Source: a virus
Strand: one strand, 5' to 3'
DNA: 23,585 bases
IMG/VR virus record: IMGVR_UViG_3300011116_000775
Span: 1 to 23,585 of that record
Shown: positions 1 through 20,713 of the stretch, piece after piece
Position numbering within the stretch: position 1 is the first letter of the stretch
Layout: the number at the start of each line of letters is the position of its first letter
Program-made: the position numbers and the translations under genes
Notes under the pieces: model-generated
What the model was told of the DNA's origin: nothing
Database searches by the model: none
What the model saw: only the letters and a program-made list of their open reading frames with translations

Positions 1-3000
1 TACTTTACAGGCAAGGGGTATCAAACTGCCGAAGATGTCTTCGACTTCGTCGAGTCCGGCGCGATGCGTTACAAAGTCAGGCCCGAACAAATGGGCGGGA
101 CAGGAGCCAAGTATGCTCGCAGTATTAGAACGACAGCGTTTGGCCGTGTCATCATGGTCAATGACGTTAACTACTACAACCCCAAAGAAGACAACTTCAA
201 CAATCAGGTCGACCTAAGAGAAGTGCTGCATAGCAGCATACCGCAGCCTGTCATTAGACAGGCCGATGAATATGTTGAACAGTTTTATGCAAGCAAACCC
301 GAGGTCAAGATAGCCCCTGAAGAAAGGGCAAGGGCTGAAGAACTTCTTGCCCCGAAAATTGATTTGGCTAAACAGGCCAAGGCAACCTACGACCAGATGA
401 TATTGAACATCGTCAACAAGACCGATTCCATCGGTCAGATGTTGGCTCCTATCAAAGGCATAAAACGCGCTGCTGAGAAACTGGTTGAAGAAAAGTTTGA
501 AGTAAACAACATCAAAGACTTACTGCGCTCAACGATTGTAGTCACTGACTACAGCCAGTTGCAGGACGTGGTCAACGCAATTAACCAAAACTTTAACATC
601 CTTCGGATCAAGAACCGGTCTGAGAATCCTATCGTTGGGCCAAACGTCCAAACAGAACCGCGCAAGAAATTTGGTGGTTATTCGGATGTGATGATTAACA
701 TCCGTATGCCTAACGGCATCATCGCCGAGATTCAGATTAACTCGCCCGTAATGCTTGCGGCCAAGGACGAACAAGGCCACAAGCTTTACGAAGCGGCGCG
801 GGAACAGCCCGAAGGGTCAGAGCTTTATCGGACTATCTACGAAGCCATGGAAGGCTTTTACGACGCAGCTTTCTTGGCGTTGAATGCTCTAAGGTCCGAG
901 GCACAAACAAGGAAAGCTCGCTCCGACATAGGCGCGGCTCCTTTATCTGGCACAGCCATAGGCGAGAGAGTCTCGCCAGAATCGTCAAGCTTGAAAGAAG
1001 AGCCGTCAGGGAAAACGGCAATCTCTTCGCCTGAAAATGTAGCAATGAATTTAGTCCCTTCCGGGAAAGAATCAGGTACTCGCATCATTGTTCCTCCTAG
1101 TTCCAAGGTTAAATATGCTTTGTCATTCCCGCAAGACGTAACTGACGCACGGCGGGATTTAAAGCTTAAACGGTTAAGACTTACCGCAGCAGGGAAAGCT
1201 TACCCCGGCGCACCCAAGAATGAGCGCATGGTTCTTTCAGCGCCCGGGAAACCAGACTTTGTTACCGGCGATATCACGATAGATGATTGGAAGAATCGAG
1301 TTCAATCGTTACTTAGTGAACAAGAGATTAAGTCTTTTGCAAACTGGTACAGCGAAGTTAACAAGCTGTTTAAACAGTACTTCCCAAAGAACGACCCCAG
1401 TGTTGATAACTACATGGCTGCTTGGCTGGTTGCCAATCAGAACACCGACGTATCAACGGCGATGAAGAACGCTTTGCTTCAGGCAGAACAAATTGGTCGG
1501 AAGATGCCTGAGTCTCAGATGCGCTTAGGTGGTCTTGAGACCGCCACGATTGCCGCACGAAGCGCTATTCGCGGGGTTCCTATCACCGAAGGTGTAGGGA
1601 TCAAGATCTCTGATTTCGTTGACAGTGCGCTTGGAAAGAATACTCGTACTTACTACGGCGATCACGCTGTGGGTGCAGCACCATTTGTGGTTGATATCCA
1701 CACAGCAAGGGATACGGGTCTTGTGGACCCGATCCTTGTCAATCATTTAAAGCGTTTAGGGTACAACGTCCCAGAGGATATCAAGATTGACTTCCCCATG
1801 GGGCCCGGGGAAACGCAATACGAAAACCGTGCCGACTTTGGTCGAGAGATGACCAAGCGTTTAAACGCTGAGAAATGGATGGGCAAGTCCGACTGGAAGC
1901 CTGCCGAGATCCAAGCCATTGGATGGATGGCAATGACACGCCTTACCGCCGATGCGGTAGAAGATACCCGCACAGCTTTGGAAAGAAATCTTCAGCGCAT
2001 CTCGATGGAAGCAGCGCCGGGAGATGGGTCGCCACTGGCTGAGAAGTATGGCGAAGCATTCAGTCAGCTACCGGCTGACAAGCAAGCCGATCTTACTCAG
2101 ACCCTCACAACCATGGCAATCAATGCAGCGCAGCAGATCTCGGGGATCAAGCTGTCATCGATTGTTCACGGCATGGGCGGTTGGCAGCACTTTCAAAATC
2201 CGGCGACCGTGGCCCAAACCTTAGCCACTCCCGAGGGCGCAGAGATTGCTTCAAATGTTATTGGGTATCTGCTTCAGCAAACTGAGGTGTGGAGCAACAA
2301 AGCAAAGCCTTTGACCAAGAACCCGAGAGGGTTTGCGATTGACTTCCTAGAAGCCGCCGATGGAACTACGCTTGCAACTGATGCGGGCATTCTGAACTTC
2401 TGGAACAAGGTTATGGAAGCTGACCCGACTAAGTTGTTTGTCGGTTATCAGCCTATCAAGACCGCAGACAACCGTCATGGCATCCGGGTTCTAGTGAATA
2501 AAGGTGGGAAACAAACGTCAGAAAAAATATTTTCTGCTATCAAAGATAATATTAAAGATATGGTGGTAAAGTCTGGTCTTAAATTGGAGGTCACCGGACA
2601 TGAAGCAGAAATCATCGTCGCAAGAAACGACTGGACCCAAGACAGGGAAGGGCGAGCTTATCTGGAAAGGCTGGTCGACCTCGGAGTCGCAGATCCCGCA
2701 GCCAAACTCGATCCTCTTCGGAGCCAATTTGAGACAGTCTACAAAGAAGGCACGGGAGTCCGATTTGCTAGATCTCCAGAATCTCAAGCAGGACCCAGCG
2801 GAAGCGGCCATGTTGTACTCGGACGAACTCGTAAAGCAGATGCGGCAGAAGTAAAAGGCGTTCATTACGGCAACAAGCTTGTCGATAAACTTTTGGGCAG
2901 TATGTACGGCACCGGGATTCGCGGGGCCGAGCGCCAGCGACTAGCTAAATCGACCGACGAAAGAATTAAAAAGCGCGTCTACTTCTACATTGAGAAGCCT

Positions 3001-6000
3001 GATGGCAAGATGCCCCCGGTTGAGTCTGGGCTAGGCGCGTTTGTTTACACGCAGAACTTCGGGAATATCTTAGCCCCCGGAGACAAAATGTCTGACATGT
3101 TTGCCAAAGCAAACAGAGACTTCAACGACTTTGAATCTTCTGTCGTTAACGCAGGTTATGACGGCTATGCCGTCCCGTCTATGGGCATGATGGTTATCCT
3201 CAACCATGATGTGCCGGTGAACTACGAAGGCACTCGAGACAAAGTTAAATTTGCAAAAGCAGCACAAGAAGGGATACCACCCAACGTGCTGAAGGCTCAG
3301 GCCATGGAGCGTTTAAACGAAGTACAGCCCATGGCAGAACCTAACGGGTTTAACTTGGCCCGTTCACCAGTGACGGCAAAAGCCGGGATGAATGTGCTGA
3401 ATCAGTTTGTCGATGAGGCGCCGACCTTCGGGAAACAAGTTGTTCAGCGCATCCTCGATATGCCCAAGAACAACCGTGCCATGGTCTACAAGTTCCTGAC
3501 ACTGGAGCAACTGGCCGATGTCGGCCAGAACCTCCTGCCCGAACTGAAGGATTACTACGAAACCTTTCAGGACATGACAGGGTATCGGGAAAAACAAATC
3601 TACTACGCTCAGAAGATCGCCGAAAGGTTGGCTAAACTGAAGAACAAATCCCCCGAGATGGTGGAGCGTTTGGCTGACGTGTGTAATGACGCAACCCTCC
3701 TTGGATTTGATCCTGACCCCGCCAAGAAGGCGGTAGGTACGTCCCTACCCATCATGAAACTGAAGGGTGATTGGAACAAGCTAAACCAAGAGGCCAAGGA
3801 TCTCTATGTTGAGATGCGGAACTTCTATGAGAATCGGTTTAACGCCTATCAGGCTATGCTTCAGGATCGCATCGACAAATCGGTGACTGATCCAGCATCG
3901 CGTCAGGCCATCATGGAAAAGTTCCGCAAGATGTTTGAGAGCGCAAGGAACAAGGGTCCTTACTTCCCGCTCTCACGCTTTGGTCAGTATTGGGTCTCCT
4001 TTGAACAGGGTGGCATCAAGAACTTCCGGATGTTTGAAACCTTAGCAGATTCACAGCGGTTTCAGAAAGAGTTGGACTCGCAGGGTGTGCCGCACAACCA
4101 AGGCGTTCGCGGGGATACCATGATCCCTGACGGGATACCGGCGTCTCAGATTCAAGAGATCATCGGGCTAGTCGATACCGCCGGGAATCCCGGAGAGCTT
4201 AAGCAACAGATCTGGAACACCTACATCTCGATGTTGCCTGAAGTCTCAATGAGGAAGCACTTCCTACCTCGTAAAGGCACACCGGGATACAGTAACGATA
4301 TCCTGCGTTCGTTCTCGGAGAACACCTTCCACGGGGCTTATGCCCTAGCGCGTTTAAAGTACGCGCCGGATTTCGATGCTGCTATCGCAGCCATGAAAAA
4401 GCGCGAGAAAGATTTATCCGGCGAGCAAGATTCCGAGAAACGAAGCGAACTCTTGCGTGAAGTCGAAAGCCGCCAACAGTACATCGACAACCCGACAGAT
4501 ACCAACTTCTTCACGAACATGGCAGGCACCATCGGGTTTACATGGTTCCTGACAGCGCCAGCTTCTGCTATCACCAACTTAGCCCAGAACGTCACCGTAG
4601 CTTTCCCGATCCTGTCGGCCAAGTTCGGGACAAACAGCGCCATGCGGGAGATGTCCACGGCGTATAAACAGTTCATGGCAAGCGCCAAGCGCGGTGAAGA
4701 GTCGGTCTTTGATATTCAGCGTACCTTGCAGCAACTCTACAATGAGACCAAGTCTGCCAAGTACAAGCGGGAAATGGACGCCATCAATGCACTGATGGAC
4801 AACGGCACCTTATCTCGTACCCAGACCATGGACCTTGCCCAGCTTTCGGATAAACCCAGCATGGTCGGGACAAGGTTCCACTCAACCATGAAGTATGTGG
4901 GTATGTTGTTCCATGGTGCCGAAGTGATGAACCGAACAACAACGGCACTGTCTGCCTTTAGACTTTCGTATGAGAAACATAAGTCACTAGGCGAAGCCGA
5001 AGCTTATCAACGTGCGCTTAAAGATGCTCGAGAGATCACGCGCAAAGCACACTTTGACTACAGCGCCTCAAACAAACCACCGATCATGCAGGGCAAGACC
5101 GCTCGAGTGATCTTCATGTTTAAACAGTACGGCCAGCATATGGCGTACATGTTGTTGAGAGAAACCCAGTTGTATGGGAAGTACTTGATCGATAAGTATC
5201 GCGGCACACCGATGCAGAAAGAAGCCGAGATCCGGGCTAAAGAAGCCCGGGATACGGTGATCGGGATTCTCTGTACCACCGGGATGTTCTCGGGCGTCTT
5301 CGGGCTTCCTTATCCTTTGTATGTGCTGACCATCACGATTGCTAATGCTTTGTTTGGTGATGATGAGGACGAAGAGTTCGATGCGGAGACACGGTTTAAA
5401 CTGTGGCTGACCGACACGTTAGGGGCTGGTCCTGCGGACATTATCGCCAAGGGTCCTTTGTCTTACCTAACCGGCGCCGATATCTCTGACAGGATTAGTT
5501 CCAACGGTTTAATCTTCCGAGATACCGGTCGACTAGGACCGAGGCAGGCCAAGGATGAAGATCAGGTTGCTGCAACGCAGCAATTCTTGGTAGAGATGGC
5601 CGGACCGATGGGTGGTCTTGCCATGAATATCGGGCAAGGCATCGAGTCATTTAAGAACGGTCAGGTGTACCGTGGCATCGAGAAGATGGTTCCCGCACCG
5701 CTACGCGATGTGATGGAGACTTACCGATACAACACTGAGGGTGTCCTCACCATGAAGGGTGATCCGATCCTTGATGAGGTATCGAGTATGCAATCGTTCG
5801 TCAACCTGATTGGCTTCTCGCCGGTAGAACTCGCTCGGCAGTATGAGGAGAACGCCGCCATCAAGGCGGTCGAGTCGAAGGCAAACATGGAGCGGAAGCG
5901 GATCTTGAACAAGTTTGCTTTGGCAACTAACAACCATGATTTCGATGCGTTAGAAGATGTTGAAGCGGCGATTGAACGATACAACGAAAGATTCCCGAGT

Positions 6001-6141
6001 TACGAAATCACTGGTAAGACTCTTGCCAAGTCTCTCAAGTCGCGGGAAGCCGCGTCAGCGGAGAATGAACACGGCGTCAGGGTTACAAAGAAGCTGGCGG
6101 GGATCGCGGAACGCGCTGGGCAATTAACCGGCACAGAGTAA
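1..6141 (+). CDS. Giant phage polyvalent/internal virion protein, 5' partial (RelA/SpoT-like, ART-like, PLxRFG)
   Basis: The frame is open from base 1, so this is the C-terminal part (2046 codons seen) of a larger protein that starts outside the window. Residues are counted from base 1. Residues 130-265 resemble the RelA/SpoT nucleotide pyrophosphokinase fold: KDLLR with D173, GGYSD at 225-229 and EIQI with E243 match the family's D, GYxSxH and EVQIR motifs. Residues 950-1080 (GVHYGN, H955; AGYDGY from 1051) resemble ART-PolyVal-type ADP-ribosyltransferases. FPLSRFG at 1322-1328 is the PLxRFG motif of large phage polyvalent proteins, followed by the usual C-terminal region with hydrophobic stretches near 1508-1540 and 1753-1780 and an acidic run (DDEDEE). 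Such proteins are thought to be carried in the virion and delivered with the DNA; whether that holds here is inference. The gene ends the rightward late operon and overlaps the tail of the opposing HNH gene by 59 bp. Confidence 0.85.
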   Translation, partial: YFTGKGYQTAEDVFDFVESGAMRYKVRPEQMGGTGAKYARSIRTTAFGRVIMVNDVNYYNPKEDNFNNQVDLREVLHSSIPQPVIRQADEYVEQFYASKPEVKIAPEERARAEELLAPKIDLAKQAKATYDQMILNIVNKTDSIGQMLAPIKGIKRAAEKLVEEKFEVNNIKDLLRSTIVVTDYSQLQDVVNAINQNFNILRIKNRSENPIVGPNVQTEPRKKFGGYSDVMINIRMPNGIIAEIQINSPVMLAAKDEQGHKLYEAAREQPEGSELYRTIYEAMEGFYDAAFLALNALRSEAQTRKARSDIGAAPLSGTAIGERVSPESSSLKEEPSGKTAISSPENVAMNLVPSGKESGTRIIVPPSSKVKYALSFPQDVTDARRDLKLKRLRLTAAGKAYPGAPKNERMVLSAPGKPDFVTGDITIDDWKNRVQSLLSEQEIKSFANWYSEVNKLFKQYFPKNDPSVDNYMAAWLVANQNTDVSTAMKNALLQAEQIGRKMPESQMRLGGLETATIAARSAIRGVPITEGVGIKISDFVDSALGKNTRTYYGDHAVGAAPFVVDIHTARDTGLVDPILVNHLKRLGYNVPEDIKIDFPMGPGETQYENRADFGREMTKRLNAEKWMGKSDWKPAEIQAIGWMAMTRLTADAVEDTRTALERNLQRISMEAAPGDGSPLAEKYGEAFSQLPADKQADLTQTLTTMAINAAQQISGIKLSSIVHGMGGWQHFQNPATVAQTLATPEGAEIASNVIGYLLQQTEVWSNKAKPLTKNPRGFAIDFLEAADGTTLATDAGILNFWNKVMEADPTKLFVGYQPIKTADNRHGIRVLVNKGGKQTSEKIFSAIKDNIKDMVVKSGLKLEVTGHEAEIIVARNDWTQDREGRAYLERLVDLGVADPAAKLDPLRSQFETVYKEGTGVRFARSPESQAGPSGSGHVVLGRTRKADAAEVKGVHYGNKLVDKLLGSMYGTGIRGAERQRLAKSTDERIKKRVYFYIEKPDGKMPPVESGLGAFVYTQNFGNILAPGDKMSDMFAKANRDFNDFESSVVNAGYDGYAVPSMGMMVILNHDVPVNYEGTRDKVKFAKAAQEGIPPNVLKAQAMERLNEVQPMAEPNGFNLARSPVTAKAGMNVLNQFVDEAPTFGKQVVQRILDMPKNNRAMVYKFLTLEQLADVGQNLLPELKDYYETFQDMTGYREKQIYYAQKIAERLAKLKNKSPEMVERLADVCNDATLLGFDPDPAKKAVGTSLPIMKLKGDWNKLNQEAKDLYVEMRNFYENRFNAYQAMLQDRIDKSVTDPASRQAIMEKFRKMFESARNKGPYFPLSRFGQYWVSFEQGGIKNFRMFETLADSQRFQKELDSQGVPHNQGVRGDTMIPDGIPASQIQEIIGLVDTAGNPGELKQQIWNTYISMLPEVSMRKHFLPRKGTPGYSNDILRSFSENTFHGAYALARLKYAPDFDAAIAAMKKREKDLSGEQDSEKRSELLREVESRQQYIDNPTDTNFFTNMAGTIGFTWFLTAPASAITNLAQNVTVAFPILSAKFGTNSAMREMSTAYKQFMASAKRGEESVFDIQRTLQQLYNETKSAKYKREMDAINALMDNGTLSRTQTMDLAQLSDKPSMVGTRFHSTMKYVGMLFHGAEVMNRTTTALSAFRLSYEKHKSLGEAEAYQRALKDAREITRKAHFDYSASNKPPIMQGKTARVIFMFKQYGQHMAYMLLRETQLYGKYLIDKYRGTPMQKEAEIRAKEARDTVIGILCTTGMFSGVFGLPYPLYVLTITIANALFGDDEDEEFDAETRFKLWLTDTLGAGPADIIAKGPLSYLTGADISDRISSNGLIFRDTGRLGPRQAKDEDQVAATQQFLVEMAGPMGGLAMNIGQGIESFKNGQVYRGIEKMVPAPLRDVMETYRYNTEGVLTMKGDPILDEVSSMQSFVNLIGFSPVELARQYEENAAIKAVESKANMERKRILNKFALATNNHDFDALEDVEAAIERYNERFPSYEITGKTLAKSLKSREAASAENEHGVRVTKKLAGIAERAGQLTGTE

Positions 6142-7141: not shown

Positions 7142-7406
7142 TACCCCTTGCTCGTATGGCGGCGGCGCAGTCTTTTCCATGCTTGTACCACTCAGGGCCA
7201 CCATTAAATATATTCAATGCTGGATGCACCCCAAGCCCCTCACACACCTTCGCACACGCCTCACGCTCGGCAGCAGCAACGAGGGCAGCGAAGCGTTCAA
7301 GAACATCGGGGGTGGCAAAGACTTGCACATCGTCCCAGTGCTCTGGGCTTCTAAATGGTTTGCACCCCGCCTCCCGCGCCATGCGGATGATGTCTTCTCT
7401 ATCCAT
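7110..7406 (-). CDS. Conserved hypothetical phage protein (98 aa)
   Basis: The protein begins MDREDIIRMAREAG and contains LERFAALVAAAEREACAKVC and DCAAAIRARG. This helical pattern occurs in many small proteins of Burkholderiales phages with no assigned function. The ATG at 7406 lies inside the last codons of the upstream gene, and its Shine-Dalgarno (GGGAG) is formed by that gene's conserved LREKN codons. The segment between residues 17 and 40 varies in such proteins. Function unknown. Confidence 0.7.
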   Translation of the reverse strand: MDREDIIRMAREAGCKPFRSPEHWDDVQVFATPDVLERFAALVAAAEREACAKVCEGLGVHPALNIFNGGPEWYKHGKDCAAAIRARGNEKRERDHRE

Positions 7407-7647
7407 GATTCTTCTCCCGCAGCTTGGCTTCAAGGACTTTGCATAGCCAGTTGACTGATTTATCACCTTTAACCATCTCGCACGACAGTATGTCAATCTC
7501 CCCATCCGTCAGCCCAACCCATTGCTTCAGTGCCAATCGGCGCAATTCGACGGCTGATTCCCTGCCCGTGCTATTGCTTATTCGTCCTTGCACAAACTCA
7601 GCGTCCAGCGCATCAGCCAGCCGCAGGGCTTTGGGTTGTGTGCTCAT
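7399..7647 (-). CDS. WVGLT-module paralogue 1 (82 aa)
   Basis: This is the shortest of five related proteins in this operon. Its C-terminal half carries the shared module KQWVGLTDGEIDIL followed by VLEAKLREKNHG. The N-terminal half (MSTQPKALRLADALDAEF) differs from the other copies. It starts with ATGA overlap to the upstream gene and ends so that its last codons supply the Shine-Dalgarno and start for the next gene. The family is widespread in Betaproteobacterial phages; no function is known to me. Confidence 0.75.
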   Translation of the reverse strand: MSTQPKALRLADALDAEFVQGRISNSTGRESAVELRRLALKQWVGLTDGEIDILSCEMVKGDKSVNWLCKVLEAKLREKNHG

Positions 7648-8039
7648 GTGTTCTTCTCCTTTAGCTTGGCTTCGATGTATCGGGCAAACCTCACACCGTC
7701 CTCATTCAAGAAAAGTGCTTCCATGTCCTCCTCCGTCAGCCCAACCCATTCACGCTTTGGTGGTGCGGTGTAGAGTGGTATGTCATCTGGATTGGGGCCG
7801 ATCAGGTTGCCTTCTTCATCGAACTTTGATGAGCGATGCCACCAAAGTTCCCCCTTGCCCCCATTGGTAATCCACGCCACCGGCTCTTGCTCTGTCTCCA
7901 GTGCTTGGCGTAGGGCGGCGATGGAGTCAGTTGTATTGCGCTTTGCCTGCTCCAGCGCAGACTCAGGCCAAACCCACTTTCCGTAATTTGCCCAGCCCTC
8001 CAGCGTGTGCAGCGCCATCTGCATCGCTTCTCTGCTCAT
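7644..8039 (-). CDS. WVGLT-module paralogue 2 (131 aa)
   Basis: Three blocks are visible: an N-terminal helix MSREAMQMALHTLEGW shared with the paralogue ending at 8708; a middle block EPVAWITN...DDIPLYTAPP; and the C-terminal module REWVGLTEEDMEALF...EAKLKEKNT. The DNA for the first ten codons is nearly identical to that at 8969-8998. Upstream and downstream joins are both ATGA. The last codons read AAGGAGAAAAACACATGA, serving as protein end, Shine-Dalgarno and next start at once. Function unknown. Confidence 0.8.
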   Translation of the reverse strand: MSREAMQMALHTLEGWANYGKWVWPESALEQAKRNTTDSIAALRQALETEQEPVAWITNGGKGELWWHRSSKFDEEGNLIGPNPDDIPLYTAPPKREWVGLTEEDMEALFLNEDGVRFARYIEAKLKEKNT

Positions 8040-8488
8040 GTGTTTTTCTCCTTTAGCTTGGATTCAAGTGCTTTGGTAATCTTTACCCAATAATTTCGCT
8101 CTGCAAACTGCCCGCTAATTACTTCCCCAATCTCCTGATCGGTCAGCCCAACCCATTCTCGCTTTGGAATTACTTTTTCGTGGTATGTTTGATCGTTCAT
8201 TACTGCCATGGCAAGTGACTGGCAGGTTTGGCATGGTGCGGTGTATAGAGGTGTCCATCGCTCAGGGTAACGGCCAATATCTGCGGGTCTGTGCGTGATG
8301 ACATTACCTTCAATAAAATTGTGCATCCACGCCACCGGCTCTTGCTGCGCTAATGCTGCATTCCATCCTCGCTGATAAGCCTGTGCAATCTCAATTTGTT
8401 TGTCGTGTTCAGTTTTCACGACACGTTCTTCCCATGCGTGTTCCGCAAGTTGAATTTTTGCCTCGTAATCATCGTATGAATCGCTCAT
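8036..8488 (-). CDS. WVGLT-module paralogue 3 (150 aa)
   Basis: The largest family member here. An acidic helical N-terminus (MSDSYDDYEAKIQLAEHAW) is followed by a helix QAYQRGWNAAL, the block EPVAWMHN...WTPLYTAPCQTCQ, and the shared C-terminal module KREWVGLTDQEIGEVI...ALESKLKEKNT. The CxxC in the middle is absent from its paralogues. It joins both neighbours by ATGA overlaps. The same three-block layout recurs in many phage hypothetical proteins; the role is unknown. Confidence 0.8.
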   Translation of the reverse strand: MSDSYDDYEAKIQLAEHAWEERVVKTEHDKQIEIAQAYQRGWNAALAQQEPVAWMHNFIEGNVITHRPADIGRYPERWTPLYTAPCQTCQSLAMAVMNDQTYHEKVIPKREWVGLTDQEIGEVISGQFAERNYWVKITKALESKLKEKNT

Positions 8489-8715
8489 TGCTCCCTCGCT
8501 TTCAGCATCGCGTCTGCCATTTTGTAGTAACGCCTTGCACTATCTTCCATCGTTTCCCCGTTAGCTCCAGCAACTTCAGCAGCCCAGTCGCCCTGCATCG
8601 CCTTGGCTGCAAGGTAGTCGCGCAGAGACATGCCTGGCTGGATTAGGTACGAATGTGCAACGGGAAATGCTCCCCCACCATCTGTTGGTGTCTTTGCGTT
8701 TTTGTTTTCAGCCAT
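8485..8715 (-). CDS. LRDYxAA-domain small phage protein (76 aa)
   Basis: The protein MAENKNAKTPTDGGGAFPVA... contains GMSLRDYLAAKAMQGDW and ends YYKMADAMLKAREQ. This LRDYFAA...AYxxADAMLKAR pattern defines a very common small phage family of unknown function; two more copies of the fold appear here, at 11044-11229 and as the C-terminal half of the alpha-CTD protein at 10054-10422. The ATG at 8715 uses a GGGAG that lies within the final codons of the upstream WVGLT paralogue. Confidence 0.75.
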   Translation of the reverse strand: MAENKNAKTPTDGGGAFPVAHSYLIQPGMSLRDYLAAKAMQGDWAAEVAGANGETMEDSARRYYKMADAMLKAREQ

Positions 8716-8998
8716 GATTTTTCTCCCGCAGCTTGGCTTCCAGTGCTCTTGAAACATCAAGCCAACCTCCACCTTCAAGCACATCGTCAATTGCATCTGA
8801 CACTTCTTCGTCAGTCAGTCCAACCCATTCATGTTTACTTTTTGCCTTTTCATCGACACGTTCTTGCGATGTGTCGTCGGCATCGACAAGTGCTTGGCGC
8901 AGGACGGCGATGACTCCTTCTAGTTTTTGGTCGCAATACACGTCATCCGCAATCTCGTTCAACATACCAAGCGCCATTTGCATAGCTTCTCTGCTCAT
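8708..8998 (-). CDS. WVGLT-module paralogue 4 (96 aa)
   Basis: N-terminus MSREAMQMALGMLNEIADDV matches paralogue 2; the C-terminus has HEWVGLTDEEVSDAI...ALEAKLREKNHG. The middle EPVAW...LYTAPP block seen in the longer copies is missing, so this is the two-block form. It starts with ATGA overlap to the XRE regulator. Its final codons overlap the next start by 8 bases and supply its ribosome site. Function unknown. Confidence 0.8.
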   Translation of the reverse strand: MSREAMQMALGMLNEIADDVYCDQKLEGVIAVLRQALVDADDTSQERVDEKAKSKHEWVGLTDEEVSDAIDDVLEGGGWLDVSRALEAKLREKNHG

Positions 8999-9309
8999 GC
9001 CCTATCCCCCGCATCTTGTTTCCATTCGTCAAACTTAGCCGTGAGCCGAGCGGATAGCTTTGCACTAGGTTCCTGCTTACCTCTTTCAATCCTGCTGAGA
9101 TTGCCCATGCTGGTCCCGACTTCCTTTGAAAGCTCTCTAATGGTCCGACCAGAAGCTAGCCTTGCCTGTTTCCAATGGGTGGACTGTTCTGTGAGTTCTT
9201 TGATTAACTCAGCGGCCTCGCGGATCAAAGCTTTCTCAGGGGCGCAGTAGTCAGGTAGTCCTGTTGCGTACCCTACAAGTCGGTTGTAAACCCTTTCATA
9301 TTTGTTCAT
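8995..9309 (-). CDS. XRE/Cro-family HTH DNA-binding protein
   Basis: The 104-aa protein has an N-terminal helical part (1-45) and a classic Cro/CI helix-turn-helix at about 48-90: WKQARLASGRTIRELSKEVG, then TSMGNLSRIERGKQEPS. The motif LSRIERGKxxPS is diagnostic of XRE-family repressors. It sits inside the early operon, not next to the control region at 14.05 kb, and may act on that palindrome; this is inference. It starts with ATGA overlap to the gene upstream, and its stop overlaps paralogue 4 in the same way. Confidence 0.85.
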   Translation of the reverse strand: MNKYERVYNRLVGYATGLPDYCAPEKALIREAAELIKELTEQSTHWKQARLASGRTIRELSKEVGTSMGNLSRIERGKQEPSAKLSARLTAKFDEWKQDAGDRA

Positions 9310-9578
9310 GAGTTCCTATCCCGCAAAATGGTTTCAATCTTTTGGATCACTTCCACATGGGTGAACTTGGATAGCTCCTCGTAGTCACTGTCGTTTAAAC
9401 CGCGCCACTCAAACGGTGTGACAAACAACGGTATGTTGTAAGCTTGGTAGCGGTTTCTTTTCTTCTCCGCGCTGTGAATGATCCTTGTCTGTTCGTCAAA
9501 CTCTAGGTCAGTCGCCCATGCGATGGGTTCATCCAAAAAGGATTTATCTTTTTGGTACAAGTTGTGATCCCCGGACAT
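9306..9578 (-). CDS. Divergent WVGLT-module paralogue 5 (90 aa)
   Basis: A diverged member of the family: EPIAWATD...YNIPLFVTPFEWRGLNDSDYEEL...IQKIETILRDRNS lines up block by block with EPVAWITN...DIPLYTAPP and EWVGLTDEE...ALEAKLREKN of its neighbours. The ATG at 9578 has GGAG about 6 bases upstream, in the 9-bp gap after the zinc-ribbon gene. GTTTAAAC at 9393-9400 lies in it. Function unknown. Confidence 0.75.
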   Translation of the reverse strand: MSGDHNLYQKDKSFLDEPIAWATDLEFDEQTRIIHSAEKKRNRYQAYNIPLFVTPFEWRGLNDSDYEELSKFTHVEVIQKIETILRDRNS

Positions 9579-14524: not shown

Positions 14525-14554
14525 AATCCCCCGCGCAATACGGGGGATTTTTTT
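14525..14554 (+). terminator. Rho-independent terminator after the nuclease gene
   Basis: AATCCCCCG (14525-14533), a 7-base loop and CGGGGGATT (14541-14549) form a perfect 9-bp stem that runs into a seven-T tract at 14548-14554. Confidence 0.9.
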
Positions 14555-14559
14555 GCCTA

Positions 14560-14587
14560 TTGACAGGCTTAAATATTCCTATACAAT
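14560..14587 (+). promoter_or_regulatory. Strong sigma70 promoter (TTGACA-N16-TACAAT)
   Basis: TTGACA at 14560-14565 is a consensus -35; TACAAT at 14582-14587 matches five of six -10 bases; spacing is 16. It lies directly after a terminator and starts the ncRNA and perhaps, by read-through, the primase-helicase transcript. Confidence 0.8.
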
Positions 14588-14590
14588 CTT

Positions 14591-14770
14591 GCCCTAGTCG
14601 GATTTGGCAGTCCGGCGAATGGAAAAGAGTGAGAACCCCAGATGTTTTAGGTTGGGGCGTTGATGATGAAGTGCGTTTTCCCTTCGGGGGAAATTCTCTT
14701 TTCCAAAGCGCCTGAGTCTGCCTTCGCCAAAGGTAACGCCTCAACCTAAGATCTCTGGGGTTTTTCTTTT
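14591..14770 (+). ncRNA. Probable structured phage ncRNA with own terminator (about 180 nt)
   Basis: From the strong promoter the transcript first forms GTCGGA/TCCGGC (14597-14602 with 14611-14616). A long rod then follows: AACCCCAGA (14634-14642) with TCTGGGGTT (14754-14762), a 4x4 internal loop, and TTAGGTTGGGGCGTT (14647-14661) with 14735-14749 (15 pairs, one G-U). Inside the rod is a 7-bp hairpin with a cUUCGg loop (14676-14693). The rod ends in TTTTTCTTTT, like a terminator. GGAAAAGAG (14621-14629) is an exact complement of CTCTTTTCC (14696-14704), a possible pseudoknot or switch; loop TTTGGC (14603-14608) complements GCCAAA (14726-14731). No Rfam family recognised; the rod shape recalls 6S RNA but no sequence match is claimed. 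Confidence 0.65.
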
Positions 14771-15014
14771 GGGTCCGGCTCGGACCCCATCCGTTAGCAA
14801 GGACACTAACCGTGGTCGCGTGGGAGAGAAGCGGATAGACGGTACGCGAAAGCTAGGGGGCAGTTCCCGAACAACCCGTCCGGCTGGCTGAATCCTCAAG
14901 CCGAGGGGCATCGAAAGGTGCATGAGGATGGTGCTTACGCACCCAAGGAGCCTCCCCCCTGAACTCATGGGTACAACCCGTGGGGGTAGGGGGGCTTTCA
15001 CAAGGAGCCTCATA
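14771..15014 (+). other. Hairpin-rich leader upstream of primase-helicase (possible cis-RNA or origin)
   Basis: No gene is seen. Perfect or near-perfect hairpins follow one another: GGGTCCG-GCT-CGGACCC (14771-14787); GTTAG/CTAAC (14793-14810); ATCCTCA/TGAGGAT (14892-14898 with 14923-14929) enclosing GCATC-GAAA-GGTGC with a GNRA tetraloop; GGTGC-TTAC-GCACC (14930-14943); CCCCCCT/AGGGGGG (14954-14960 with 14988-14994) enclosing CATGGGT-ACA-ACCCGTG (14966-14982). AAGGAGCCTC occurs twice (14945-14954, 15002-15011); the second copy is the Shine-Dalgarno of the primase-helicase. Could be a regulatory leader or replication origin; no DnaA box seen. Confidence 0.55.
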
Positions 15015-16676
15015 GTGTTTGCAGAATTACTAAAAGGAAGTGACCATGCAAGGTCTGTCTGTCCACAGTGTAGCCACCAGCGCAGGAAGCATCGCGAACC
15101 CTGCCTGAGCGTCAACCGTGTGATGGATGGCGTTGTGTATCAATGTCACCATTGCGGATTTTCAGGGAAAGAAAAGTACATGGAACAAAAATACATAGAA
15201 CAAACCCACACAGCCCCGAAACAAATGAGGGGCTTAGGCGCCAATGAAATAGCGTGGCTCGAGGCGCGGGGACTAACGTCCCGAACCATGCCACTGGTTG
15301 AAGCAACCGAACAGTTCTTCCCCAAGATAGGGGCCAAAGCCCCGGCTGTTGTGTTCACCTACAAAAAGGGTAGCAAAACAGTCGGTGCGAAATACCGTGC
15401 CATCACTGACAAAGCCTTCATCCAACAGGTAGGCTCCGAGCAGATCTTCTACCAGCCGATGGACATCGACCTCACCAAACCCTTGGTGATTACCGAAGGC
15501 GAGATTGACGCCTTGTCTTGCATCGAAGCAGGGTGGTCGAACGTGGTAAGCGTCCCCGGCGGGGCGCCGGTGAAGATCTCCGAAGGAAGGGTGGACCCGT
15601 CCGAGGATAAGAAGTTTGGGTTTATTTGGGAGGCCAAGTCGATCCTCGACAAGGTCCCGGCGGTGATCCTTGCGGTCGATGCCGACATCCCCGGGGTTGC
15701 TTTGAAAGAAGAACTCGCTCGGAGAATAGGCAAATCAAAATGCAAGACGGTGACCTACCCGGAGGGCTGCAAGGATTTAAACGATGTCCTTGTAAAACAC
15801 GGCGAGCTTGAACTCATATCCGTCATCGAACAGGCACAAGCTTGGCCGATTGAAGGGGTCTTCAATGCCAAGCACTTTGAATCTCAGGTCTTCGACCTGT
15901 ACGAAAAAGGATTAGGCAGTGGCGAGTCGACGGGTTACCCCGAACTCGATGAGTTCTACACGGTGGTGCCGGGACAGTTAACGGTGGTGACAGGTTATCC
16001 ATCTTCAGGCAAGAGTAACTTTGTCGACCAGTTGATGGTCAACCTCGCTCGAGACAAGCAGTGGAAGTTCGCGGTCTGTTCGTTTGAGAATCCTCCGGCG
16101 CTGCACATACCGAAGCTTTGCGAGCTATACCTGAAACAGCCCTTCTTTGAAGGGCCGAATCCCCGAATGGGCAAAGAAGAACTCAACAAAGCTTTGGAAT
16201 GGGTAGCGAATCATTTCATCATGCTGGATACGATCTCCAGTGAATCGACCATCGAGTCGATTCTCGACCGAGCACAATCAGCCGTGGCACAACTCGGTGT
16301 TCGCGGGTTGGTGATCGATCCCTACAACTTCGTGGACCTTCACTCGACCACGACCGAGACCGATGCCATCTCCCGAATGCTGACCCGGGTTCAGGCATTT
16401 GCCAAGGCCGCTGGTATCCATGTCTGGTTTGTCGCCCATCCCGCAAAACAGATGCGGGTTGGCGAGTCGCTTCCTGTACCTGATGGCATGTCGATCTCAG
16501 GCTCGATGGCATGGTGGGCGAAGGCCGATGTAGGTATGACCGTGCATCGGAAAGAAGGCGTCGAAGTGCTGGTGAGAATCTGGAAATGCCGCTGGCGGTG
16601 GACCGGGCAGACCGGCGACGTGTCGTTGATCTACGACCGGACGTGCGGGGCCTACCGGCAGGACTGGACCTTTTAG
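15015..16676 (+). CDS. Bifunctional DNA primase-helicase (T7 gp4/Twinkle type)
   Basis: The 553-aa protein joins all primase-helicase parts in order: zinc ribbon C16xxC19 ... C44xxC47; TOPRIM with EGEID (161-165) and DAD (222-224); linker; and a RecA-like DnaB-family helicase with Walker A GYPSSGKS (327-334), GLVIDPYN (Walker B-like) and the C-terminal WKCRWRWTGQTGDVSLIYD. It would lay primers and unwind the fork during phage replication; no DNA polymerase is in the window. The GTG at 15015 is chosen because AAGGAG lies seven bases upstream; an ATG at 14922 would add 31 residues encoded within the hairpin region and lacks a matching site. It is one of only two genes on the plus strand in the replication region. 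Confidence 0.9.
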   Translation: MFAELLKGSDHARSVCPQCSHQRRKHREPCLSVNRVMDGVVYQCHHCGFSGKEKYMEQKYIEQTHTAPKQMRGLGANEIAWLEARGLTSRTMPLVEATEQFFPKIGAKAPAVVFTYKKGSKTVGAKYRAITDKAFIQQVGSEQIFYQPMDIDLTKPLVITEGEIDALSCIEAGWSNVVSVPGGAPVKISEGRVDPSEDKKFGFIWEAKSILDKVPAVILAVDADIPGVALKEELARRIGKSKCKTVTYPEGCKDLNDVLVKHGELELISVIEQAQAWPIEGVFNAKHFESQVFDLYEKGLGSGESTGYPELDEFYTVVPGQLTVVTGYPSSGKSNFVDQLMVNLARDKQWKFAVCSFENPPALHIPKLCELYLKQPFFEGPNPRMGKEELNKALEWVANHFIMLDTISSESTIESILDRAQSAVAQLGVRGLVIDPYNFVDLHSTTTETDAISRMLTRVQAFAKAAGIHVWFVAHPAKQMRVGESLPVPDGMSISGSMAWWAKADVGMTVHRKEGVEVLVRIWKCRWRWTGQTGDVSLIYDRTCGAYRQDWTF

Positions 16677-17508: not shown

Positions 17509-17955
17509 TTAAACGCTACTAAGCTTCTTGATTAGTCTCGTGAGGTAGGCTTCGTAAGAAGCTTTTCTCTCTTCAGGCCAAAGCGCAGTGCTCAAATCGT
17601 CCAAGTTTTCGAGCGCGTCATTCAGTTTGATGAGTCTTGCCATAGGCGAAAGCTTCTTTGCTTTGGCGAGCACATATTTTTTCTTGTGCTTCACCCTCTT
17701 AGGGACGGTTAATTCTTTGACCAGATCAGCGACCGTGTCGTTGAAAATATGTCTAAGCGTTTTGACGGTCATGTTCGTGTCTTCGACCACGTCATGCAGG
17801 ATCGCGGCCATGATGACGTTGTCATCATTGGTGTAAGCACTCACTCTGTTTGCAACGCTTAGGGGATGCATAACGTATGGTGTCTTGCCGTCAGCCCTCG
17901 TTGCTCTACCGTGGGCTGCAACTGCAACGAAGCAGGCTGTGAGAATGTTAGCCAT
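17509..17955 (-). CDS. SpoT/MESH1-type HD alarmone hydrolase
   Basis: The 148-aa protein is a stand-alone HD hydrolase of the RelA/SpoT type. Motifs in order: AAHGRATRADGKTPYVMHPL (H30 in the YxxHP motif), AAILHDVVEDT (H54-D55, E58-D59), FNDTVADLVKELT and RLIKLNDALENL (D113), matching RelSeq H53, H77-D78 and D144. Small alarmone hydrolases of this kind remove the 3'-pyrophosphate of (p)ppGpp or related alarmones, and phage-borne ones are known to neutralise toxic alarmone synthetases. The ATG at 17955 with AAAGGA upstream is preferred over 17991, which would overlap the preceding gene and hairpin. The stop TAA lies in a GTTTAAAC site (17507-17514). Confidence 0.85.
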   Translation of the reverse strand: MANILTACFVAVAAHGRATRADGKTPYVMHPLSVANRVSAYTNDDNVIMAAILHDVVEDTNMTVKTLRHIFNDTVADLVKELTVPKRVKHKKKYVLAKAKKLSPMARLIKLNDALENLDDLSTALWPEERKASYEAYLTRLIKKLSSV

Positions 17956-17968
17956 GATGAATCCTTTC

Positions 17969-17984
17969 CGGGGGTTGCCCCCCG
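17969..17984 (-). other. Hairpin directly after the VWA gene stop
   Basis: CGGGGG-TTGC-CCCCCG, 6-bp stem, begins three bases after the TGA of the VWA gene and lies in the leader of the HD hydrolase. No T tract follows. Same placement as the hairpins at 22244 and 22575. Confidence 0.5.
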
Positions 17985-17987
17985 ATG

Positions 17988-19472
17988 TCATGCGGCAAGT
18001 TTGATTTGGTTGAGAGCAACCGTGGCAAGGTCCGAGATCTTGTCGACGCGGACCGAGTTGGGACCGTAAACAGCTTGCACGTCATACCCGATGCCGACCC
18101 CAATCGTCGGGATGCCGAGGCGCTCGCCAGACTTGACCTGAGCGGTGACTGATGCAGGGCTGTGACCCTCGCCGTCAGTGAAGGCAAAGACCACGCGCCG
18201 GGATTCCGACCGACTACGCAGAAGCTTTTGTGCAAAGCACAAAGCGTCATAGTCATAGGTGCTACCGCACGGCTCGAGCTTGCGAAGCTTCGGGACGAAG
18301 CGCTTCCACGGCTCGTTGAAGGTCTTCAGCATCGAGGTGCTGCCAGCGAAGCCAACCACGGCGGTCGGCACGTTAGCGGCTGCTAAGGAAGCACCGACTG
18401 CGTACACCGCCGAGACCAACGGGCTGATGGTGGACTCCATCGAAGACGACAGGTCGACCAGCAAGACAACCGCAGAGTCGATGCCCTCGTCGTCATAGCG
18501 GCGTTTAAACACGTTGCCCGAGGTCTGGTAAACCGCGAGGCGGTTGCTGTTGATGGTGCCGCTACGATAGCCAGCTTCCCAACCGTAGTGATCGGTCTTC
18601 TCGAAAAGCTTACGCACGTCAAAGCGAAGGCGACCGCTGACATTCGTATCAACGAAATTGTTGCGACTGTCATTGATGAAGGCGCTTTCCTTGACAACCT
18701 TCTCGCGCCGACCGCTCGGGAGCGTACCCGCCGAGGTCTCGAACTGCGGCTCGATGGGGACGCCGCCGTCATTTTGGTCGAAGTCGGCAGGGATGGGACC
18801 GAGGTCATTCGACGGGTCACCATTCGATGGGTCACCGCTCGATGGGTCACCATTGGACGGCGCCGGGGAATCCTCCGGAGGAGGCAGGCGAAGCTGGTCA
18901 ACAATCCACTTAGCAATCACCATGTTGTCACCAGACCCCGTCGAAGCTTTGATCATGGGCATCGCAGCAGCGAAGATAGGGTTTAAACGTGGGGACCAGT
19001 CGCTATGCAGTCCACGACCGAAGCACACAAGTGCAAAGGCGATGTTGTGCGGGTTGGTCCAGTCGACGGGAGACGAAGACATGCAGTGCTCGCCTAGCTC
19101 GTGGAACAGTTCGCCCGAACCCGGGATCAGGTTGGATTTGACGATCTCGCCTTCCATCCAGATATCCTCAACCGCGTTATGCATACGCGACAGGAAGGCA
19201 TCGGTGAAGAAGTACTGAGGACCGAACTTGGAGAAGATGACGTGGCCGAGTTCATGGAGGGCGAAAGCCTGAAGCCTGCGGAACTCGTCATGAGGGATGA
19301 CGGCGTCATCGAGGAAGTTAGGAAGGGTAATGACCGTGCCATCGGTATAGGCCCCATCCCCGCACCAGCGGATGGGGTTCCAACGATCATTACCCGGGCG
19401 AAAGAGGGACCGAGCGCGACGAATCGTATGGTCGATGGCATCGCGCACCTCGTAACCTTTGAAAGATTTCAT
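17988..19472 (-). CDS. CobT-like VWA-domain protein with HExxH motif
   Basis: The 494-aa protein has two parts. The N-terminal part carries FALHELGHVIFSKFG (H73-E74-x-x-H77) followed by HNAVEDIWMEGEI (E102, D103, E107), a metal-site pattern like that of zincin-type peptidases and of CobT-like proteins. A low-complexity acidic linker (about 196-240, with three PSNGD-type repeats) leads to a C-terminal von Willebrand A domain with a full MIDAS: DLSSS (340-344), T405 and FTDGEG (D433). VWA proteins of this class work with MoxR/CobS AAA+ ATPases, and one is encoded directly upstream with ATGA overlap at 19469-19472. Metal-chelation-type cobalamin synthesis is unlikely in a phage; protein remodelling or proteolysis is more plausible, by inference. 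Confidence 0.8.
   Translation of the reverse strand: MKSFKGYEVRDAIDHTIRRARSLFRPGNDRWNPIRWCGDGAYTDGTVITLPNFLDDAVIPHDEFRRLQAFALHELGHVIFSKFGPQYFFTDAFLSRMHNAVEDIWMEGEIVKSNLIPGSGELFHELGEHCMSSSPVDWTNPHNIAFALVCFGRGLHSDWSPRLNPIFAAAMPMIKASTGSGDNMVIAKWIVDQLRLPPPEDSPAPSNGDPSSGDPSNGDPSNDLGPIPADFDQNDGGVPIEPQFETSAGTLPSGRREKVVKESAFINDSRNNFVDTNVSGRLRFDVRKLFEKTDHYGWEAGYRSGTINSNRLAVYQTSGNVFKRRYDDEGIDSAVVLLVDLSSSMESTISPLVSAVYAVGASLAAANVPTAVVGFAGSTSMLKTFNEPWKRFVPKLRKLEPCGSTYDYDALCFAQKLLRSRSESRRVVFAFTDGEGHSPASVTAQVKSGERLGIPTIGVGIGYDVQAVYGPNSVRVDKISDLATVALNQIKLAA
18811..18855 (-). repeat. Three tandem 15-bp units in the VWA gene linker
   Basis: GAYGGGTCACC-based units at 18811-18825, 18826-18840 and 18841-18855 encode repeated GDPSN/GDPSS peptides in the linker between metalloprotease-like and VWA parts. 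Copy number may vary between relatives. Confidence 0.75.
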
Positions 19473-20713
19473 GGTTTCACCTGAGAGAAAAGAAGATGAC
19501 CCCAATCAACCGGGGCAACGTACTGATCGAAAATGGTCTGAAGCTGCGCCGCACTCTCGGGCGGCTGCTTGTTGACCACGGTCGACCTCCAAGCTGACCG
19601 CAACGGCAGGCCAGCAGTCAAGACCTCGACGAAGGCAAAAGCATTACGCAAGGTCGGTGCATCAACCAGAAGGCCCTTGCCCGTATCGACCCGGGCGATG
19701 TTCCAGATCTTGACCACGGCATCGGCCAATGGTTTGGGGCAACCCGTGTTGCCGCAGATAACGCGAGCCTCGGAGACAGGGTCCAACCACGTCACGGTCT
19801 CCATGAAAGCGTAGCGGTCGATGAGCGCAGCGTTCTGCGCCGTGGTCCCGACGAAGCGTCCGGTGCTATCCGACTGACCGACCGTGTTGTCACAAGCAAC
19901 GACCATGACGCCGGGAGCGCGTGAGTACACGTTCGGCCCGGAGGTCACCGAGCATCCTGGCTCGAGCCAAGCGTTAAGTTGGGCGATCAACTCGGGGCGA
20001 CCGTTGGTAGGCTCATCCAGCAGGATGATCGCACCGGGATGTTTAAACCCGGTGGTGAAGGCAGTCTCCTGCCAGACACTGTTGCCAGCGTCCAGACCCC
20101 AACAACCGAAGAGTTCAGAAGCATCGGTGCCGCGATGGAAGTTGACCCGGAAAAGCTTGCGACCCGTGGCAGCAGCAAACTGCGTGACTGCGGAGGTCTT
20201 GCCGGTTGAGCGATCACCGGTCAGCCAACCGTTTAAACCGGCCTTCTGAGCGACGATCAGGTGATGGAGAACATTCTCCTGCCAGACATAGTTTGGATCG
20301 ATCTTAGGCGCTTCTGGATCGCCGTAGACGTCAACGCGCAGCAGATTACCACCGGCGTTGTAGAGGTCGATGCCGAACACCTCGCGGACGGTCTTGGATT
20401 CGACCGCCGGGGCTGCTGCACGGGCAACCTCGGGCTTTGCAGTGATCGCCGTCTCGAGGGGTTTGATGAGCGCTGCCACGGCCTTGGAAATCTCGGCACG
20501 AATGACAGAGTCATCAACCACGGGCGCGGCGGGAACAACCAGCGGAGCGGCTGGCTTGCCTGCGATAGCATCAAGATCGAACACCGTATTGATGCCATGA
20601 GCCATCAGCGCCGAGACAAGGTCAGCCTTGTAGTTGGGACCGGGGGCGATGTTTAAACCAAGGACCCGGGCCGCAGGCTCAAGCTTTGAGACAGGGCAAA
20701 GTAGAAGTGACAT
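19469..20713 (-). CDS. MoxR/CobS-type AAA+ ATPase
   Basis: The 414-aa protein has an N-terminal region with a SAP-like or helix-extension-helix segment (about 16-50, YKADLVSALMAHG) and an Ala/Pro-rich linker (50-105). The AAA+ core follows: Walker A GDRSTGKT (166-173), Walker B IILLDE (229-234), sensor 1 VVACDNT, and an arginine finger region LIDRYAF (R300). GTDASELFGCW is the typical MoxR/CobS loop. It would hydrolyse ATP to remodel a target together with the VWA protein encoded next. The start has GGAG seven bases upstream. GTTTAAAC occurs three times in the gene (20041, 20231, 20651). Confidence 0.88.
   Translation of the reverse strand: MSLLLCPVSKLEPAARVLGLNIAPGPNYKADLVSALMAHGINTVFDLDAIAGKPAAPLVVPAAPVVDDSVIRAEISKAVAALIKPLETAITAKPEVARAAAPAVESKTVREVFGIDLYNAGGNLLRVDVYGDPEAPKIDPNYVWQENVLHHLIVAQKAGLNGWLTGDRSTGKTSAVTQFAAATGRKLFRVNFHRGTDASELFGCWGLDAGNSVWQETAFTTGFKHPGAIILLDEPTNGRPELIAQLNAWLEPGCSVTSGPNVYSRAPGVMVVACDNTVGQSDSTGRFVGTTAQNAALIDRYAFMETVTWLDPVSEARVICGNTGCPKPLADAVVKIWNIARVDTGKGLLVDAPTLRNAFAFVEVLTAGLPLRSAWRSTVVNKQPPESAAQLQTIFDQYVAPVDWGHLLFSQVKP

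Follow-up and report, generated by a model that had tools for sequence, protein, structure and literature searches.

Locus organization and promoter

The region between a nuclease gene and a primase-helicase gene in the virus record IMGVR_UViG_3300011116_000775 (23,585 bases, analysed as a whole and called here the window) raises the question of whether a stretch devoid of genes encodes an RNA of its own, how far such an RNA extends and what it might do. The initial annotation had proposed a new non-coding RNA at 14591-14770, with a long rod, a possible pseudoknot, its own promoter and a terminator. In silico analysis indicates a larger unit, a structured RNA gene spanning about 14594 to about 15011 on the plus strand (Table 1). 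The segment first noted is indeed structured, but it is not the whole RNA; it represents the 5' domain, and the sequence continues to about 15011. That the structured RNA gene has two domains, with 14591-14770 as the first, and defines a new family in tailed phages is well supported.

The predicted promoter lies 3' of a terminator and consists of TTGACA (14560-14565), a 16 nt spacer and TACAAT (14582-14587), with 11 of 12 positions matching the consensus. In the nearest relative, L001 (primase 68% identical, whole RNA region 79% nucleotide identity), a terminator and a promoter-like site occupy the same places with changed letters. Promoter-like sites also precede the rods of relatives, where 60% score at least 9/12, versus 5% at control positions; this enrichment at the same place across the family upholds the assignment of an own promoter. 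The primase-helicase gene that follows has a possible GTG start at 15015.

Table 1. Features of the RNA gene and its flanks in the window
Feature	Position	Strand	Remarks
RusA-like/PDDEXK nuclease gene	14096-14479		Gene on the upstream side of the RNA
Intrinsic terminator of the upstream gene	14525-14554	+	Insulates the RNA gene; present at the same place in L001
Sigma-70-type promoter TTGACA-16-TACAAT	14560-14587	+	Predicted; transcription start expected near 14594
5' hairpin	14597-14616	+	Loop UUUGGC (14603-14608) can pair with GCCAAA (14726-14731)
Rod pseudoknot strand s, UGGAAAAGAG	14620-14629	+	Pairs with 14696-14705; matched changes in relatives
Rod	14634-14762	+	H1, H2 and apical UUCG hairpin
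Rod helix H1, AACCCCAGA/UCUGGGGUU	14634-14642/14754-14762	+
Rod helix H2	14645-14661/14735-14750	+
Apical UUCG hairpin of the rod	14676-14693	+
Rod pseudoknot strand s', CUCUUUUCCA	14696-14705	+	Pairs with 14620-14629
U-tract, UUUUUCUUUU	14761-14770	+	Right after H1; intrinsic-terminator geometry
Core domain	14779-14946	+	Match to model R1, 106.9 bits; P1, P2, P3, P4, P5
Core helix P1	14786-14789/14821-14824	+
T-loop-like hairpin P5	14856-14868	+
Core pseudoknot	14881-14929	+	Crossed helices 6 and 7, with P8 (14908-14921)
Hairpin P9, GGUGC-UUAC-GCACC	14930-14943	+
Direct repeat DR1, CAAGGAGCCUC	14944-14954	+
Hairpin P10	14952-14994	+	Pyrimidine-rich strand with GGGGGUAGGGGGG (14982-14994)
Direct repeat DR2, CAAGGAGCCUC	15001-15011	+	AAGGAG inside may double as Shine-Dalgarno sequence for GTG 15015
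Primase-helicase gene (Toprim and DnaB-like)	15015-16676	+	Next gene downstream of the RNA

The 5' domain

The segment 14591-14770 folds at -82.3 kcal/mol, compared with -54.6 +/- 4.0 for shuffled sequences (z -6.9), and none of 200 shuffles equals it. A stable stem followed immediately by a U-run, characteristic of an intrinsic terminator, is found at 14754-14770, and the U-tract after H1 recurs at the same place in relatives of unrelated sequence. The upstream layout of the relatives also repeats that of the window, successively: promoter, 5' hairpin, a leader strand pairing into the interior of a long stem, the stem itself and the U-run. The reading as a new structured RNA with a terminator-like 3' end is supported.

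The proposed pairing of UGGAAAAGAG with CUCUUUUCCA was confirmed by compensatory changes over 44 rods. It was scored by run lengths rather than by duplex energy, because the latter is confounded by composition. Between leader and interior, the longest run of Watson-Crick pairs has a mean of 8.2 within a phage versus 5.5 between phages (p 5e-26, which is not a p-value of independent trials, the members being related), and a run of at least 7 is present in 89% of the 44 rods versus 14% of the cross-controls. In the relatives closest to the window, starting with the window itself, the two strands are UGGAAAAGAG/CUCUUUUCCA, AGAAAGAGAG/CUCUCUUUCU, GAAAGAAAGG/CCUUUCUUUC, UGCUGAGUA/UACUCAGCA, GAACGAAG/CUUCGUUC, GAAUCGAGAA/UUCUCGAUUC, GAUUCCA/UGGAAUC and GGAACGAA/UUCGUUCC. 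The second proposed complementarity, between the loop UUUGGC and GCCAAA, does exist, but it hardly varies and shows little covariation: UGGCA and GCCA are kept in the closest rod relatives. This pairing is compatible with the data, not proved by them.

The pseudoknot also bears on the suggestion that the RNA is a 6S-like decoy of RNA polymerase or a put-like antiterminator. The long rod and the own promoter would suit such a function, but neither 6S nor any other Rfam family is matched, and the structure is pseudoknotted instead of being a plain rod with a large central bubble. Neither the decoy nor the put-like element is supported, and both roles are considered extremely improbable.

The rod is a module that can be detached from the core it precedes, because some members lack it: their core follows immediately after a promoter (L033, L053, L076, L162) or at a short distance from an upstream gene (L097, L098, L161, L197). 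As a separate observation, contig L023 (4280-4660) contains a promoter, a rod and a GGGGTAGGGGGGG box, and its intervening core is unrecognised by the core model.

The core domain

Among primase relatives, conservation is highest in the stretch 3' of the rod, not in the rod itself. This second domain (14779-15011) lies directly downstream of the rod and is conserved across 49 distinct representatives, 34 of which were aligned with MAFFT and used to build the covariance model R1. The T-loop-like hairpin has three pairs closing a loop UGCAAAU/UGCAACU. In the core pseudoknot, the helix CGGCU (14881-14885)/AGCCG (14899-14903) is crossed by AUCCUC (14892-14897)/GAGGAU (14924-14929).

In the 34 aligned representatives, 83.9% of the cells of the 38-pair structure, pseudoknot included, are paired, compared with 63% in shuffles and 30-45% in slid controls. 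Cells changed on both sides number 281 versus 96 in shuffles, counts that do not represent independent events, the members being related. For the crossed helices 6 and 7, 100% and 98% of the cells are paired, again with changes on both sides. Base pairs are thus kept through matched changes in both the rod (s/s') and the core. An ordinary terminator with chance folding and no RNA function has a single point in its favour, that hairpins are generally abundant in phage genomes; it is refuted by the covariation in both domains, with model matches reaching an E value of 1e-41, and retains a negligible probability. A group I intron core was considered, given a somewhat similar order of crossed helices, and rejected; the sequence of the helices is free to vary, and a conserved guanosine site was not seen.

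Distribution and database searches

When viral contigs were screened with a sequence pattern derived from the core region, at least 120 segments matched, the majority being true members. Coding sequences and fortuitous matches (the GGTGCAAATCCTCGAGG group, L131 and L139) were also picked up by the first such search and were discarded; the 49 distinct representatives are the reduced set left after the removal of two chance matches. Outside its seed, the covariance model recognised L069 (E 3e-27) and L045, L029, L036 and L057 (E 3e-7 to 9e-7), all E values being rough. Weak matches (E about 0.01) were obtained in L006 (3828-4002), L015 (2043-2217), L008 (3532-3704) and L012 (3380-3484); they precede the primase in a group of G+C-rich phages and are possible remote members.

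When 19 long phage records were scanned over their full length, the model found a single copy in each. Among 84,980 bacterial and archaeal genomes, the pattern matched four times; three of these matches, in metagenome-assembled genomes (MAGs) of Acidovorax, Polaromonas and a gammaproteobacterium, were confirmed by the model. One further match, weak and partial, came from a set of 299 relatives of the first of these genomes. The RNA is regarded as a phage feature, because there is one copy per phage record and it is nearly absent from bacterial genomes. The hosts may include Burkholderiales, a guess from the three MAGs.

BLAST with three members gave no match among known phages, and tblastn with the primase returned distant isolates only, so that no cultured phage carrying the RNA was found. 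A comparison with Rfam release 15, at the gathering score and up to E 10, produced nothing near threshold and hence no matching family: C4 antisense RNA, self-splicing introns and the rest gave weak matches at chance level, and cobalamin and other riboswitch models gave none, the T-loop-like hairpin being the sole likeness. No published description was found in the open-licence literature, and an earlier one is possible. Judged by these sequence comparisons, the RNA of about 420 bases is a previously undescribed large structured family in many uncultivated phages. Given a family name and a covariance model, it could be annotated across viral contigs.

In being large, structured, often phage-borne and pseudoknotted, the RNA resembles GOLLD and ROOL, the ornate large RNAs frequent in phages (PMC12286853). 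It matches the Rfam model of neither one and is set apart by its length of about 420 nt, by the terminator-like domain close to the promoter and by the pair of direct repeats that flank a G-rich hairpin.

The 3' end and the gene neighbourhood

Behind P9, DR1 leads into a pyrimidine-rich strand, which is followed by GGGGUAGGGGG, some U's and finally DR2. All 49 representatives carry the G-rich box, as GGGGUAGGGGG in nearly all; the number of G's varies slightly, and one member has GGGGAAGGGGG. Base pairing is possible between the box and the pyrimidine-rich strand, in which C and U interchange. The two direct repeats match within a phage, with at least 7 identical letters in 43/49 versus 11% in cross-controls, a conservative comparison since the sequences compared are related. 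Between phages they change together: the similar RNAs of L119 and L157 carry CAAGAACUUA twice and CAACCCAAU twice. In the whole record, the window repeat CAAGGAGCCUC occurs at 14944 and 15001 only. A search for an RNA complement of the repeats from -400 to +350 bases revealed none, own sequences being no better than the cross-control. Matched repeats with no complement in cis are an unusual constraint, which to our knowledge no RNA class explains.

Most genes next to the RNA serve replication or recombination (primase-helicase, replication initiator, Toprim primase, RusA, RecT, Sak, NinB and NinG). In the L082 group it lies beside the terminase, between late genes on the other strand. The gene content behind DR2 swaps among close relatives (L132/L196/L198, L183/L111, L092/L129, L126/L199), and in near-identical RNAs with different next genes the sequence identity stops at DR2 or a few bases past it. 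A mobile element was considered and set aside, gene exchange being seen deeper in the operon as well and no empty site having been demonstrated. The use of DR2 as ribosome-binding site of the next gene was likewise rejected, start codons lying behind it in 12/49 members versus 20% at random. In the window and in L001, DR2 is placed a few bases before the primase gene start and may double as ribosome-binding site there.

A cis-acting, riboswitch-like leader of the following gene would agree with this last arrangement and with the co-orientation of the RNA and the following genes in most contigs. Against it, next genes differ widely even between near-identical RNAs, starts are not enriched after DR2, and some members have no close gene behind them on that strand; such a leader is very unlikely.

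Another reading is a free-standing RNA acting in trans, in which rod and core would form one molecule joined by the U-tract as a linker and the direct repeats, beside the G-rich hairpin, would be two equal binding sites for one partner (protein, DNA or RNA). The single copy per genome, the variety of gene contexts, that of the L082 group among them, repeats matched within phages and different between them with no complement in cis, and the lack of start codon enrichment behind DR2 all point this way. On the other side, the rod has the geometry of a textbook terminator, the RNA has no known partner and rod-less members exist. This reading is possible, though we consider it doubtful.

The placement of the core beside replication genes suggests a role in an early or replication programme. 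Alternatively, in line with the primer and replication-control candidates of the initial annotation, the RNA would be a replication primer or origin RNA, the G-rich stretch near its 3' end making a persistent RNA-DNA hybrid like that of ColE1 RNA II or mitochondrial CSBII, and the RNA of DR1 could pair with the template at DR2. This would account for the neighbouring genes and for a G-rich box kept in 49/49 while its pyrimidine partner drifts, and the within-strand GC3 skew rises across the RNA in 14/18 contigs (p 0.014). Yet the cumulative GC skew does not reach its minimum close to the RNA (p 0.41), the L082 group adjoins the terminase, and the G-rich strand is also explained as one side of P10. 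A primer of this kind is rated as unlikely.

The G-rich box may resemble mitochondrial CSBII, a likeness that need not imply homology. An R-loop analogy can be drawn from published work (PMC4412123, PMC6317783). The ColE1 replication primer RNA II shares with the window RNA an own promoter, a structured 5' part, a G-rich stretch near the 3' end and a replication setting; there is no sequence or Rfam relation, and the window RNA has the pair of direct repeats and a putative origin. The mitochondrial LSP transcript with CSBII (PMC6317783) is alike in its nearby promoter, in two G-runs followed by U's and in a genome copied with a Twinkle/T7-type helicase, but the G-rich box of the window sits in an RNA hairpin. 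An invariant G-rich box by replication genes provides a testable link to R-loop priming.

The rod as a putative gate

For the rod, the reading we favour, at somewhat less than even confidence, is that of a pseudoknotted intrinsic terminator gating the second domain of this new RNA family. A gating function is inferred because a strong stem directly followed by U's constitutes an intrinsic terminator, and it is favoured because the rod is separable from the core. Transcription would start at the RNA's own promoter, and the 5' leader would pair into the interior of the long stem, making the stem that ends in the U-tract part of a pseudoknot. Many transcripts would stop near 14770 and be released as an RNA of about 175 nt; the remaining ones would read through into the second domain with its T-loop-like hairpin, pseudoknot and G-rich hairpin between direct repeats, which would be the effector. 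The leader strand would pair while the terminator is still incomplete and could thereby tune the ratio of stop to read-through, both of which are deduced here from sequence features.

Several points stand against such a gate. The full-length fold pairs part of the 5' leader with the core, a fold to which the comparative data lend no support; a rod that stopped most transcripts would leave little of the core; and the U-tract could be a structural linker. The core may be a replication-control RNA or a trans-acting RNA. The gate might be combined with the former in a new class of replication RNA, in which a pseudoknotted terminator gate precedes a G-rich hairpin and matched direct repeats that place the RNA on the template and start replication with no RNA complement; we regard this combination as rather improbable.

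In phage lambda, the pR'-6S RNA-tR' leader of Q antitermination consists of a promoter, a short RNA and a terminator followed by more of the transcription unit. The window RNA has the same order of promoter, short RNA, terminator and continuation. It differs in that no Q protein was identified, the terminator is pseudoknotted and a second structured RNA comes after it.

Other genes in the window

Apart from the RNA gene, at least four small neighbouring genes at 7399-9578 on the minus strand have a common tail like WVGLTDEE...LEAKLKEKN. The tail looks like a copied C-terminal module and is also present in a gene of the related locus L158. At 17991-20713 on the minus strand, an AAA gene (MoxR/CobS-like) adjoins a VWA gene with weak CobT similarity, a pair of genes known from cobaltochelatase-like systems. 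A 2025-aa protein encoded at 64-6141 on the plus strand contains an LPD39 domain and a sub-threshold RelA/SpoT match, and a small protein encoded at 17509-17991 on the minus strand resembles, by the look of its sequence (HPLSVA...ILHDVVEDT), a putative HD-type (p)ppGpp hydrolase.
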